Part shown: positions 9,978 to 17,475 of the stretch, in pieces
How positions within the stretch are numbered: the stretch's first letter is position 1
How the letters are laid out: each line of letters begins with the position of its first letter
Position numbers and translations under genes: made by a program
Notes under the pieces: model-generated
Told to the model about the DNA's origin: nothing
What the model saw: only the letters and a program-made list of their open reading frames with translations
The model's database searches: none
IMG/VR virus record: IMGVR_UViG_3300033144_003894
Span: 1-39,888 of that record
DNA from: a virus
DNA: 39,888 nt
Strand: one strand, 5' to 3'

Positions 9978-10444
9978 TGCCTACTACTATTGGGCCTCCA
10001 TTTCCGTATGTTCCTACTGTAGATCAGTTGCCTATGGAGAGGGCACTGATCTTTGCAGATACTAGCAACAGAGTACAAAGGATCAAGGAGTCAGTGAGGA
10101 CTATCGGGGGATACCCTTTCGATGCGTACTGGGAGAGTCCTACACTTAATCGAGAGGATCCAGGTAGAGAGTACACGATCAGAAAACTCATGTTGTTCTA
10201 TTCTGCTGAGGAAGATAGTTCTTTCATAGTCCAAGCGTCAGGTAATGGAGGAAAGACTTGGAATCAGTGGAAGAGGGTGGGTGTTCTGAGATGTGTAGGT
10301 GAGATCAAGAGGGTTCTAGTAGGCCTGAACACGACAGGGGGTGATCTGCGCTTTCAGTTGCTCTTTGATCGGAATGGGATCATTAACGTCTTTGGGTATC
10401 TTCCTACTCTTATAAGGAGAGGCAGAAATGTCCTGGAGACTTAA
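9977..10444 (+). CDS. Small nozzle-companion tail protein
   Basis: A 155-residue protein starting at ATG 9977 in a TGATG overlap. The upstream TTG at 9974 is less likely. The central sequence [20 protein letters not shown] followed by [13 protein letters not shown] and a strand-rich end matches the small beta-sandwich proteins usually encoded after the nozzle gene in podoviruses. The exact role is unknown; attachment of fibres to the tail is possible. The following collagen-like gene begins in its stop codon (TAATG). Confidence 0.65.
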
Positions 10445-13400
10445 TGAATAGGTTTGAGGCCGAGGGCATTATCAGGGATGCTGCTGGGGGTGCCTTTCCA
10501 GAAGTAGATGATACCCTCAAGTTCACTGAAAAGGGATTCGCCTTTGGGAGTGGGGGAGATGGCTCTACTGGCCCAACGGGTCCTATTGGCCCTACTGGTC
10601 CAGATGGAGATGATGGAGATGATGGGGCGACAGGTGTTACTGGGCCGCAAGGGTCTGACGGTGCGACTGGGTCTGCTGGTCAAGACGGTGTGACTGGGTC
10701 GACTGGCCCTGTAGGAGCAACTGGCCTGGAAGGTGATCCAGGTATAGAAGGCAATCCAGGACCCGCTGGCGCTACTGGCGTGACTGGGTCAGATGGGGCG
10801 ACAGGAGTAGAGGGAGATTTAGGTCCTACAGGACCCACTGGAGCAGGCCAAACTGGTGCAACAGGAGTTACGGGGTCTGCAGGCGATCCTGGTGCCACAG
10901 GGGTCTATGGTGCAACTGGTATAACAGGCCAGACAGGGCCTAAAGGAGCGACTGGAACAGGTGGCGATTTAGGTCCAACTGGGGCTACTGGAATAGGCGT
11001 AACAGGGGTAACTGGGCCTGATGGAGCTACGGGAGTAGAAGGAGACCCAGGAGCAACAGGGGTCTATGGCGCGACCGGAGTGACGGGACAGACTGGCCCC
11101 GAAGGTGCGACAGGCGTAGAAGGGGACTTGGGTCCGACTGGGCCAACAGGACCAGATGGCGCAACGGGAGCAACTGGACCAACAGGCCCAGCGGGAGATC
11201 CAGGTGCTACCGGGATTGATGGGGCTACAGGAATAGATGGTGTTACTGGTCCAGACGGGGCAACTGGGGTAGAAGGGGACCTGGGACCAACAGGAGCTAC
11301 TGGTCCAGATGGCGCCACGGGAGTCGGAGTAACTGGAGCGACTGGGATAACTGGGGATCCAGGTGCAACTGGAACTCACGGAGCAACAGGTGTAACGGGC
11401 CAGACGGGACCTGATGGTGCAACTGGTGTGGGTGGAGATCTAGGACCGACTGGAGCCACTGGAGGTCTTGGTCCCACTGGGGTGACTGGACCCGACGGAG
11501 TGACCGGGGTCGAAGGTGATCCTGGAGCAACAGGAACTGATGGTGCCGTAGGGGAAACAGGAGTAACCGGGCCGGATGGAGCCACTGGTACAGATGGTGA
11601 TTTGGGTCCTACTGGCCCCACAGGAGTAGATGGGGTAACTGGACCAGATGGAGCCACTGGGCCTGCTGGTGATCCAGGAGCTACTGGAACAGACGGCGCT
11701 ATCGGAGTTACTGGAGTCACTGGACCTGATGGGGCTACAGGTACAGATGGCGATCTAGGACCAACCGGCCCAGCAGGCGTTACCGGAGCGACTGGAGTTG
11801 GGGCGACAGGAGCTACTGGGCCTGAAGGTGACCCGGGCTCTCCGGGCAACCAGGGTGTGACTGGCGCGACAGGAGTGACTGGGGATACGGGACCTGATGG
11901 AGCAACGGGGACAGATGGTGACCTAGGGCCAACCGGAGCTACTGGGGTCGGCGCAACAGGCGCGACTGGACCTGAAGGGGCAACCGGGGTAACTGGAGAT
12001 CCTGGCGCGACAGGAACGGACGGGGCAACTGGAGTAGATGGTGTAACCGGCCCTGACGGCGCGACTGGCACAGACGGAGACCTTGGACCGACTGGACCGA
12101 CAGGTGTGACTGGAGCGACCGGAATCGGAGCGACGGGAGCTACAGGACCTGCTGGCGATCCAGGTGATCCAGGTAATCAGGGGGTAACTGGTGCAACCGG
12201 AGATACTGGATCAGATGGCGCAACAGGCATAGATGGTGATTTAGGGCCTACTGGGCCTACCGGCGCGACAGGGGTAGGAGTAACTGGCGTGACTGGGGTG
12301 ACTGGTTCAGCGGGGGATCCTGGCGCAACAGGGGTCGGTGCAACTGGGGTGTCTGGTGTAACAGGACCAGACGGAGCAACAGGTATAGATGGGGATCTAG
12401 GATCGACTGGAGCAACTGGAGTCGGCCCAACCGGAGCAACCGGAGTTACTGGCGTGACTGGTTCTACCGGTGATCCAGGAGTGACAGGGGCGGACGGAGC
12501 AACTGGGATTGACGGTGTAACAGGGCCTGACGGGGCTACAGGCGTAGACGGTGATCTAGGTCCGACTGGTCCTACTGGGGTTACTGGCGTTACCGGAACT
12601 GATGGTGCTACAGGCGTTACTGGAATAACAGGAGACCCTGGAGCGACCGGAGTTGCAGGTGTAACAGGACCGGATGGAGCGACGGGTGTAGATGGTGCTA
12701 CCGGGGTAGATGGAGAGCTCGGCCCAACTGGCGCAACTGGCTCTCAAGGTGTAACTGGAGTCACTGGCGTAACAGGTATAGATGGAGCAACCGGGGCTAC
12801 TGGTCCTGTAGGTGATCCAGGTACAGACGGGGATGACGGCGTTACTGGGCCAACAGGCGTAACTGGCGCAGATGGTGCGACAGGAGTGGAGGGGGATCTT
12901 GGCCCAACGGGGCCTGCTGGTGTTACTGGAGTGACTGGGGCAGTAGGCGCTACTGGAATAGATGGTGCAACCGGTGCTACTGGGCCAGAGGGCGATCCTG
13001 GTATAGACGGTGATGATGGGGTTACTGGGCCGACTGGCGCAGACGGTGCAGACGGTGCTACGGGTACGGATGGAGATCTGGGCCCGACTGGTCCGACAGG
13101 TGCAACTGGTCCTCAAGGGAACCAGGGTACACACGGAGCTACCGGAGCAACTGGTCCGCAAGGCGGGCAAGGTGTTCAAGGCGCAACTGGTGTTACAGGG
13201 GTAACTGGAGTAGTTGGCGTTACTGGAGTTACCGGAGTAACAGGAATAACAGGTGATCCGGGAGCTACTGGGATAGAGGGTGACGAAGGCGCGACTGGGG
13301 TAACAGGGTCACAAGGTGTGACTGGCGCCACTGGAATACAAGGTGATCAGGGTATCCAAGGCGCAACAGGTACGCAAGGTGCGCAAGGTGCGACTGGAGT

Positions 13401-15766: not shown

Positions 15767-17475
15767 TGTCTGTGATCACTCTACATTTGCCAGGACTGCC
15801 GCACACAGTCACCACCGAAGAGTATTCGCACTGCGCGTTTACGGCGAAGGTCCTGAAGTTCGCTGCTATGATGCAACCGCTTTCTGGCTATCGTGTGGTT
15901 CACTATGGCGTAGGGGGCGCTGAAACCGACGCAGACGAACAAGTCACCATAATGTCTAGAAAGGAGCAGAATAAGCTCCGTGGGCATGATGGATCAGATC
16001 CGACTAAGTTCGTTGGTGATGATACTGGTATTGATACACCGCTCTTCAGGAAGTTCAATAAGCGCCTTCGTAAGCAGCTCAAGAAGCGTGCCGACCCAGC
16101 TCAGGACATCATACTACTTCCGTTCGGTTGGGGTCATGCGCAAGCCGTTGACAGACTGGATCTGGTAACTGTGGAAAGCGGCATCGGCTATCCTGACACG
16201 ATCCCAAGTGTGCCTCACAAGATCTTCGAGAGCTACGCCTGGCTCCACTACCATCAGGGACGAGACAAGCGCCAGGGCAAGGCGTACGAGTGGGTCGTGC
16301 CCAACTACTTCGATGTTGACGCCTGGGACCGTTGTTCAGATCCTGACATGAACACAGTCGTTTTTCTTGGTCGTATAGGAGAGACTAAGGGGCTACGTAC
16401 TATCGTCGAGATTGCACGCTACCGTCAGGATCTTCGCTTCGTGATCTGTGGCCAGGGAGATCCAGCGCCGTGGCTAACTCAACCAAATATCGAATACTTA
16501 CCTCCTCTCGTCGGAGATGATCGTAACGCCTACCTAGCCAATGCTCGATGTGTTCTCATGCCAACCACTTTTACAGAGCCATTCGGCGGGGTGGCAGTAG
16601 AGGCGATGCTTTGTGGGACGCCTGTACTATCGAGTCCCTATGGCGCTTTCACAGAAACCATCGAAGACGAAGTCACAGGTTTCCGCTGTCATACGTTTGG
16701 TGATTATTTAGCAGCTATCGATCAAGTACCTGACCTAAATCGTAACTATATCCGTAGTCGGGCCAGACAGCTTTACGGGTATGGGACAGTGGGTAAGATG
16801 TATGATCGCGTCTTTCAGCAGATCCACGATCTGCGAGGCGAGGGTTGGTACACCCCACGGTCTACGTTCGGACCCGTGCGAATCGAGAAGGCCGACGGCT
16901 GGGAGGCCGCTCAGGAGGGAGAGCGGGAGTTCCACATGACGCCCGCCTACCGGGCACCAGAGCGTCACAAGCGGGAGCGCTACCGCTCTCTTATTGGGAT
17001 CACGGAGGCGATGCCGCCTGGTCTGTCTGTGATCGACGTTGGCGGTGGGCCTGAGTCTCTGTTGCTCGACTATCCTGACATCAATGGTACAGTGCTTGAT
17101 CCGCTCACCTTCGGCGAGGACGACGAGCTTCGCTATGCCAAGGCGGGGATCAAGCGCCTGATCACTCCAGTGGAGGAGTGGAACGCGCTAGAGTGTATAT
17201 CAGAGTTATACGATGAGGTATGGGTCTATAACTGTCTCCAGCACGTCAGGGATCTCGACGAAGCGTTCCGTCAGATTTGCCTCATGGGCAAGCGAGTTCG
17301 GCTCTTCGAGTGGTGTGAGATCCCAACTGACAAGATGCATCTTCATACGCTCACAGCTGATGGTATCAGGAAAGCGATGAGTGGCTACACGATTGAAAAT
17401 GAGGTCGAAGGAGAATGGACAATCGGGGATTACCTTTCTGGGAAGTTCTATGCAGCTGTTTTTGTAAGATCTTGA
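15766..17475 (+). CDS. Two-domain GT4 glycosyltransferase / SAM methyltransferase
   Basis: A 569-residue protein. Residues ~1-355 are a GT-B family 4 glycosyltransferase: VVFLGRIGETKGL (~198-210), a VICGQGDP turn, and EPFGGVAVEA with the donor-binding E-x7-E pair (E271, E279), then CGTPVLSS. Residues ~385-569 form a Rossmann methyltransferase: VIDVGGGPE (422-430) is the SAM-binding loop, and VWVYNCLQHVRDLDEAF is the usual post-motif. There is no signal peptide, so it acts in the cytoplasm. Known relatives add and modify sugars; the likely target here, the Thr-rich collagen fibre, is inference from neighbourhood. Arg codons are mostly CGN (about 38 to 7), unlike neighbours that favour AGG/AGA, hinting at later acquisition. 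Confidence 0.8.
   Translation: MSVITLHLPGLPHTVTTEEYSHCAFTAKVLKFAAMMQPLSGYRVVHYGVGGAETDADEQVTIMSRKEQNKLRGHDGSDPTKFVGDDTGIDTPLFRKFNKRLRKQLKKRADPAQDIILLPFGWGHAQAVDRLDLVTVESGIGYPDTIPSVPHKIFESYAWLHYHQGRDKRQGKAYEWVVPNYFDVDAWDRCSDPDMNTVVFLGRIGETKGLRTIVEIARYRQDLRFVICGQGDPAPWLTQPNIEYLPPLVGDDRNAYLANARCVLMPTTFTEPFGGVAVEAMLCGTPVLSSPYGAFTETIEDEVTGFRCHTFGDYLAAIDQVPDLNRNYIRSRARQLYGYGTVGKMYDRVFQQIHDLRGEGWYTPRSTFGPVRIEKADGWEAAQEGEREFHMTPAYRAPERHKRERYRSLIGITEAMPPGLSVIDVGGGPESLLLDYPDINGTVLDPLTFGEDDELRYAKAGIKRLITPVEEWNALECISELYDEVWVYNCLQHVRDLDEAFRQICLMGKRVRLFEWCEIPTDKMHLHTLTADGIRKAMSGYTIENEVEGEWTIGDYLSGKFYAAVFVRS

Follow-up and report, generated by a model that had tools for sequence, protein, structure and literature searches.

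In the Bacillus spore protein BclA, sugars, including methylated ones, are O-linked to the Thr of Gly-X-Thr triplets, and the protein has a large C-terminal trimerising domain. Methylated sugars are also carried by some other glycoproteins. A virus can encode both a collagen and its own glycosylating enzyme, as in Mimivirus, where L230 is a lysyl hydroxylase/glycosyltransferase that acts on hydroxylysine. The glycosyltransferases of mycobacteriophages are reportedly phage-encoded. The glycans of mycobacteriophage virions (Freeman et al. 2023) act as a shield, according to PMC12619734. In C. difficile, SgtA, which acts on BclA3 and is encoded beside a collagen gene, puts N-acetylglucosamine on Thr of collagen peptides in vitro; PMC7157674 describes it as a GT-A type domain with tetratricopeptide repeats (TPRs) that forms a beta linkage. 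Here we analyze the virus record IMGVR_UViG_3300033144_003894 (39,888 bases, the whole of which is referred to as the window), which contains the phage head genes for an SU10-type portal and a Phage_capsid_4 protein. It also encodes a 1511-residue Thr-rich collagen-like fibre and, as the third gene after the fibre, a GT4 glycosyltransferase (GT) fused to an S-adenosylmethionine (SAM) methyltransferase (MT). We propose, with a probability of roughly 0.77, that this sugar-adding, often methylating enzyme has the fibre as its substrate. A paper linking the GT family in question, phrog_3408, to collagen was not found in the open-licence literature.

The fibre and the GT-MT fusion

The fibre, the fusion and the two small genes between them occupy the following positions of the window:

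10444..14979, + strand: collagen-like fibre, 1511 aa (Pfam Collagen and Gly-X-Y count), with short non-collagen N- and C-termini
Residues 37-1472 of the fibre, about 10552-14859, + strand: Gly-X-Y region (triplet count)
14976..15491, + strand: 171-aa protein, its start overlapping the fibre stop
15506..15766, + strand: 86-aa protein with a hydrophobic N-terminus and five clean Gly-X-Y triplets that give way to irregular ones
15766..16866, + strand: GT4 glycosyltransferase domain of the fusion, residues about 1-367 (Pfam, phrog_3408, E-X7-E)
16963..17475, + strand: SAM methyltransferase domain of the fusion, residues about 400-569 (phrog_3603 type, DVGGGPES motif)

An initial annotation, made from the sequence alone, had estimated about 478 Gly-X-Y triplets in the fibre, with Thr dominant at Y. 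Counting the triplets that lie in runs of at least five, we find 482 in 11 runs, the longest unbroken run having 255. Both statements are borne out, since Thr occupies the Y position in 255 of the 482 triplets, compared with only 25 for Pro and 2 for Lys; the X position is held by Ala in 120, Val in 106 and Pro in 93. When the residues of the fibre were shuffled 200 times, such runs held at most 53 triplets, versus the 482 of the real protein. Moreover, 34 Pfam Collagen matches are spread along the whole of the frame. Every one of the ten joins between runs is a G-(V/I/A)-G break that is one residue short; nine of these breaks fall at residues 135-661 and one at 1425, with 255 unbroken triplets between. 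Only 39 residues (1473-1511) follow the collagen region.

The fusion gene (15766-17475) encodes 569 aa. In the initial annotation it was read, three genes on from the fibre, as the fusion of a GT4 glycosyltransferase with a SAM methyltransferase, and matches to Pfam, phrog_3408 and phrog_3603 agree. In the GT half, Pfam detects Glyco_trans_1_4 (3.9e-18, 66.5 bits against a cut-off of 27) and Glycos_transf_1 (3e-17), and residues 4-363 match the phrog_3408 glycosyltransferase profile at 2e-53 over its positions 5-360 of 363. No NCBIfam model scores above its cut-off on the enzyme, and the Pfam scan of the fusion gives neither a TPR nor a GT2 match. Four residues, E271 and E279 of an E-X7-E motif together with R203 and K208, are invariant across 43 aligned rows and present in the window enzyme; the motif with its conserved R/K pair is what we take to be the signature of a retaining GT4 glycosyltransferase.

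An AlphaFold2 model of the fusion, computed on an alignment of 43 sequences from the window and the loci, reaches a mean pLDDT of 91.5 with one weak stretch, residues 374-376, between the GT and MT halves. (A single-sequence prediction of the enzyme reached a pLDDT of 32, was useless and was set aside.) The modelled GT half has a GT-B fold, with residues 1-358 giving Z scores of about 33 to GT4-type structures. Its nearest solved structure is Thermosynechococcus tll1591 (Z 33.4, rmsd 2.7, 323 aligned residues), followed by UDP-glucose:tetrahydrobiopterin glucosyltransferases (Z 32.7, rmsd 3.0, 330 aligned). In BFVD, a giant-virus glycosyltransferase, A0A3G4ZWR1 of Edafosvirus, ranks third among the structural matches to this enzyme. 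Because of the GT4 family match, the nearest structures and the invariant R203, K208, E271 and E279, the GT half is probably active, with a UDP-sugar as its predicted donor.

The glycosyltransferase is paired with collagen in phages

Thr-rich collagen was defined as at least 10 triplets with Thr at 30% or more of the Y positions. The viral loci comprise the best-scoring 80 of 583 confirmed matches from a profile search, plus the best 80 of 591 from a profile of distant members. At phrog_3408 GT loci with at least 6 kb of upstream sequence, a Thr-rich collagen is present in 59 of 63 (95% clusters). Coarser clustering gives 27/30 at 80% and 9/11 at 60%, and loosening the upstream flank to 1.5 kb gives 73/81. 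The four misses at 6 kb include L468, whose 51-triplet collagen adjoins the GT and falls just short of the threshold, with Thr at a fraction of 0.24 of its Y positions. Where at least 3 kb of upstream sequence is available, the collagen is on the same strand as the GT at 70 of 70 loci and upstream of it at 64; the gap between the two has a median of 1,026 nt and is within 3 kb in 58 cases.

The same arrangement is found in cultured phages. Matches to the GT occur in 55 of 50,697 phage records, 51 of which are Synechococcus phages, and in all three of the cultured phages examined (S-CBWM1, ACG-2014f and S-CAM7) the GT lies beside a Thr-rich collagen. The gene order in ACG-2014f is collagen, small gene, MT, GT and 2OG oxygenase; the MT is annotated there only as hypothetical and was identified by sequence comparison. 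In S-CBWM1 (L014) and S-CAM7 (L016), the GT genes are annotated as starting at 12097 and 12103, roughly 100 nt within the conserved match. That match extends back to 12001 in both, and the genes probably begin farther upstream than annotated.

A 2OG-Fe(II) oxygenase (PF13640) is encoded shortly behind the GT in ACG-2014f (L015, 16576-17169) and in S-CAM7 (L016, 13987-14583), where it could perhaps modify the collagen further. We considered a prolyl-hydroxylase-like 2OG-Fe(II) oxygenase as a general part of the module and rejected it, as it is present in only 3 of 50 GT records. A GT2-type enzyme is likewise found in only 3/50 GT records. GT2 enzymes being this rare in these phages, the GT4 enzyme would have to start the glycan chain itself. 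In one record, L089 (fragments L396, 2-1815, and L399), a GT2+TPR protein and a second GT2 protein adjoin the GT4 gene, and longer glycans may exist in that phage.

Bacterial relatives

The genome collection yielded 62 GT loci. Among bacterial loci with at least 1.5 kb upstream, 16 of 31 have a Thr-rich collagen (95% clusters). Nocardia accounts for 11 of the 15 misses, leaving 16/20 for the others, as judged from the misses and the record titles; the remaining misses are L338, L370, L389 (a 21-triplet collagen with a Y-Thr fraction of 0.24) and L394 (a short weak match). Where the pair occurs in bacteria it is tighter than in phages, with a median gap of 167 nt, and collagen and GT are on the same strand at 14 of 14 loci.

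In Clostridium viride (L386, a 963-kb scaffold), a two-gene cassette of collagen and GT lies between genes that, inspected by eye, look like ordinary chromosome genes; a Firmicutes metagenome-assembled genome (L345, a 589-kb contig) likewise has the collagen and the GT on their own, flanked by genes that by the same inspection are equally ordinary-looking. Both collagens are confirmed by Pfam. Some other bacterial loci, e.g., L333-L336 and L351, are probably prophages or misbinned phage contigs, to judge by identity and neighbours.

In Nocardia, the GT is found beside genes that by eye look EccB-like or ESX-like (loci including L358, L364 and L377), and some of these neighbours have a Gly/Ser/Pro-rich tail that contains GATGP and SGPTGASGP stretches. 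At L364, L367 and L377, the GT adjoins a Gly/Ser/Pro-rich protein in which stretches resembling GATGP or SGPWGASGP are seen by eye, a possible non-collagen acceptor.

Controls and threonine specificity

As a control we used another phage GT family, two members of which come from phages that also have the phrog_3408 GT. Searching with one protein of the control family yielded 3 loci, and searching with an alignment yielded 13. Collagen was present in the fetched fragments at 0 of these 13 loci. Over the whole records, 11 of the 13 are without Pfam collagen, and the other two (G108 and G123) are precisely those that also carry a phrog_3408 GT. An earlier choice of control (H55, L395) was set aside because it seemed to be bacterial. 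In two phages (L397 and L398), the GT2-like gene of the control family adjoins what by eye is a probable GDP-mannose dehydratase gene.

The baseline for collagen composition was a sample drawn with a pattern in which Gly and Pro are set and Y may be any residue, giving 115 loci, 64 of them with a collagen of at least 25 triplets. In this baseline, Thr reaches 30% of Y positions in 31/64 viral collagens (median 0.275). The GT-linked phage collagens reach it in 71/72, with a median of 0.60 and a median of 0.00 for Lys/Arg at Y (Fisher 1e-12 for Y-Thr versus baseline; 7.6e-7 at 80% clusters and 0.0063 at 60%). We had also considered collagens found with a Lys pattern as the baseline (4/45 at 30% Thr or more), and rejected them as biased by their own pattern. 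Thr-richness by itself was abandoned as an argument on the baseline figure just given. The initial annotation had likened the Thr-dominant Y position to the glycosylated collagen of BclA; alone such a Y position proves little, given that figure and the mere 3 of 50 GAT-collagen records that have a full-length GT match.

These comparisons bear on the customary view of phage GTs in such regions, namely that they modify the host surface (PMC7029224 and PMC10202952). The GT-MT might accordingly alter lipopolysaccharide, O-antigen or capsule against superinfection and neighbour the fibre only because genes cluster in the hypervariable tail region, and collagen and GT do sit in the tail region. We consider this unlikely, since the different GT family from similar phages lacks a collagen neighbour, the pair is found also in clostridial chromosomes outside evident phage regions, and few of these phages have an enzyme of the GT2 type (3/50 records). 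Moreover, the selective Thr richness of the linked collagens at Y would be left unexplained.

Two types of methyltransferase are joined to the same glycosyltransferase

The MT half of the window enzyme matches phrog_3603 (residues 402-538, 2e-18) and aligns with stand-alone proteins of ACG-2014f and viral contigs that have SAM-type motifs. Four aligned members retain DVGGGPES as well as a conserved D-P, which is D72/P73 in the part aligned; a glycine-rich motif with a subsequent acidic residue is presumably the signature of a class I SAM methyltransferase. One relative, L021, scores 34.9 bits with Methyltransf_23 (cut-off 27), but its MT is of a different type from that of the window. Another, L018, has weak MetW and Methyltransf_11 matches, both below cut-off.

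In the METHYLTRANSFERASE survey, which covered the 84 phage representatives whose downstream sequence is 700 nt or longer, the GT is fused to a Methyltransf_23-type MT in 28 and to the phrog_3603 type in 4, and a separate MT is present in 5 (four of the phrog_3603 type, one of the Methyltransf_23 type). The separate MTs directly adjoin the GT: in ACG-2014f the MT precedes it, and in L009 and L010 the MT follows in convergent orientation. On a quick tree of 33 rows, in which 9 of 30 inner branches are open, the phrog_3603 fusion needs at least four changes and the other fusion at least two; the rows nearest to the window, L018 and L020, are both fused. The association holds from the side of the MT as well. 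All 45 records with a phrog_3603-type MT in the phage record collection are ACG-2014f, with the GT beside the MT, and among 50 collagen records the only one with phrog_3603 (G008) is a GT carrier in which the MT adjoins the GT. That one and the same GT has been joined repeatedly, and to MTs of two kinds, suggests that the MT acts on the product of the GT. The simplest reading, which we hold with moderate confidence, is that the sugar rather than the protein would be methylated.

Neighbouring genes

Elsewhere in the window, positions 27317-29653 (- strand) encode a Family A DNA polymerase with a fused N-terminal uracil-DNA glycosylase domain, and a gene for an N6/N4 DNA methylase lies amid replication genes at 30360-31265 (- strand).

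Around the fibre, the start of one gene overlaps the stop of its neighbour at 10444, 14976 and 15766, in the manner of a single transcription unit. Pfam and PHROG scans of the 171-aa protein give no family match. The 86-aa protein had been called a mini-collagen in the initial annotation; its five clean triplets are there, but Pfam Collagen scores it at E 0.071 and 13.3 bits, below the cut-off of 27.2, and the label is a weak one.

Either of these two small proteins could be imagined as the true acceptor, with the GT-MT glycosylating them or some other virion or secreted protein and the collagen a mere companion. That the family can have other acceptors is indicated by its Nocardia members, with their ESX-like genes and GATGP-like protein. 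We nevertheless find this explanation quite improbable, because collagen is the neighbour common to phages and bacteria, no family matches the 171-aa gene and the 86-aa gene matches one only below threshold, and the cassettes of L386 and L345 have no third gene. Finally, modification of phage DNA, a frequent role of phage GTs (PMC12619734), is very improbable here, since scans of part of the window's genes with Pfam and PHROG gave no base hypermodification partner and the clostridial cellular cassette has no phage DNA to modify.

Discussion

The association of GT and collagen argues strongly for collagen as the substrate, and there is good reason to take Thr at Y as the site of glycosylation. 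Going by the nearest structures and by GT4 enzymes in general, the linkage would probably be alpha and the donor a UDP-sugar. In the mechanism that we envisage, the fibre chains would be made and presumably trimerise, and the GT half would O-glycosylate Thr at Y of Gly-X-Thr in the host cytoplasm, where each chain would offer 255 sites and the host would supply the nucleotide sugar, probably a UDP-sugar. The MT half would then O-methylate, and so cap, the added sugar. These sugars may lend stiffness or stability to a triple helix that has little proline at Y, shield the fibre, and/or serve in contact with the host.

Several observations weigh against this proposal. The viral loci are the top-scoring matches and not a random draw, and the control consists of a single GT family at 13 loci with redundancy left in. 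Three GT records, which are the other misses at 6 kb (L073, which has a GT-MT fusion, L095 and L037), show no Pfam collagen across the whole of what are possibly incomplete records. In the reverse direction, most of the Thr-rich collagens of phages are unaccompanied by this GT: 50 records with GAT-type collagens gave three full-length GT matches and one weak partial match, and 50 records with Lys-type collagens gave none with the GT; within the fetched fragment itself, the GT is present for 2 of the 80 listed GAT-collagen loci. These reverse counts are too few to carry weight. On the MT side, Pfam gives no methyltransferase match for the GT-MT of the window at E 0.1 or below, and 47 of the 84 phage representatives have no MT by the two models; with an MT in about half of the phage members, methylation would be optional. 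Lastly, the Nocardia clade has the GT without a Thr-rich collagen, among genes that by eye look like ESX secretion genes.

The initial annotation had named regular occurrence of the GT-MT gene without collagen-type fibres as the observation that would speak against its idea. Phages do not show this (59/63 paired), but the Nocardia clade does have the GT without collagen. The idea itself, that the GT-MT decorates the fibre, is supported by the difference between the pairing in phages and the 0/13 of the control, and by the clostridial cassettes; the chemistry (sugar, linkage and methylation) we infer.

A broader proposal, for which we would give rather less than even odds, is that phrog_3408 is a dedicated collagen-Thr glycosyltransferase family common to phages and endospore-forming bacteria. 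Thr-linked, often methyl-capped sugars would replace hydroxyproline and both stabilise and mask very long fibres, and glycosylated collagen appendages would be a common, overlooked part of virions, notably in cyanophages and aquatic phages. Phage glycosyltransferases are usually ascribed to the modification of DNA or of the host surface; here, one widespread family is tied to a type of virion protein. The proposal that the fibre is the substrate gives a concrete target and site for a GT family on which no NCBIfam model scores above its cut-off, and it offers a reason for the fused methyltransferases. Glycosylation of the collagen is testable in existing cultured cyanophages. If it is true, the fusion would be a compact tool with which recombinant bacterial collagens could be glycosylated and methyl-capped, and glycosylated collagen fibres may be a widespread feature of phages.

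How does the locus compare with the systems described so far? Like BclA, the window fibre has a Thr-rich Gly-X-Y region; unlike BclA, it belongs to a phage rather than a spore and has no large C-terminal domain, only the 39 residues left after the collagen region. Mimivirus offers the likeness of a virus with a collagen and its own enzyme, but the site is hydroxylysine and not Thr. Both tll1591 and the tetrahydrobiopterin glucosyltransferases share the GT-B fold with the window enzyme, yet they are only about 17-22% identical to it, and by their titles their acceptors are glucan- or sucrose-like or a small molecule, not a protein. In mycobacteriophages, the glycans reportedly sit at the C-terminal ends of the subunits of capsid and tail tube, and not on a collagen fibre. 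Compared with SgtA, which acts on BclA3 (PMC7157674), the window enzyme is a GT-B/GT4 protein with an MT domain and would do the same job with an unrelated enzyme; it is the GT2+TPR protein of record L089 that shows the architecture reported there for SgtA. By the features tested, then, the system resembles both the collagen glycosylation of BclA and BclA3 and the glycosylation of phage virions, but it has neither a BclA-type C-terminal domain on the fibre nor an SgtA-like enzyme.

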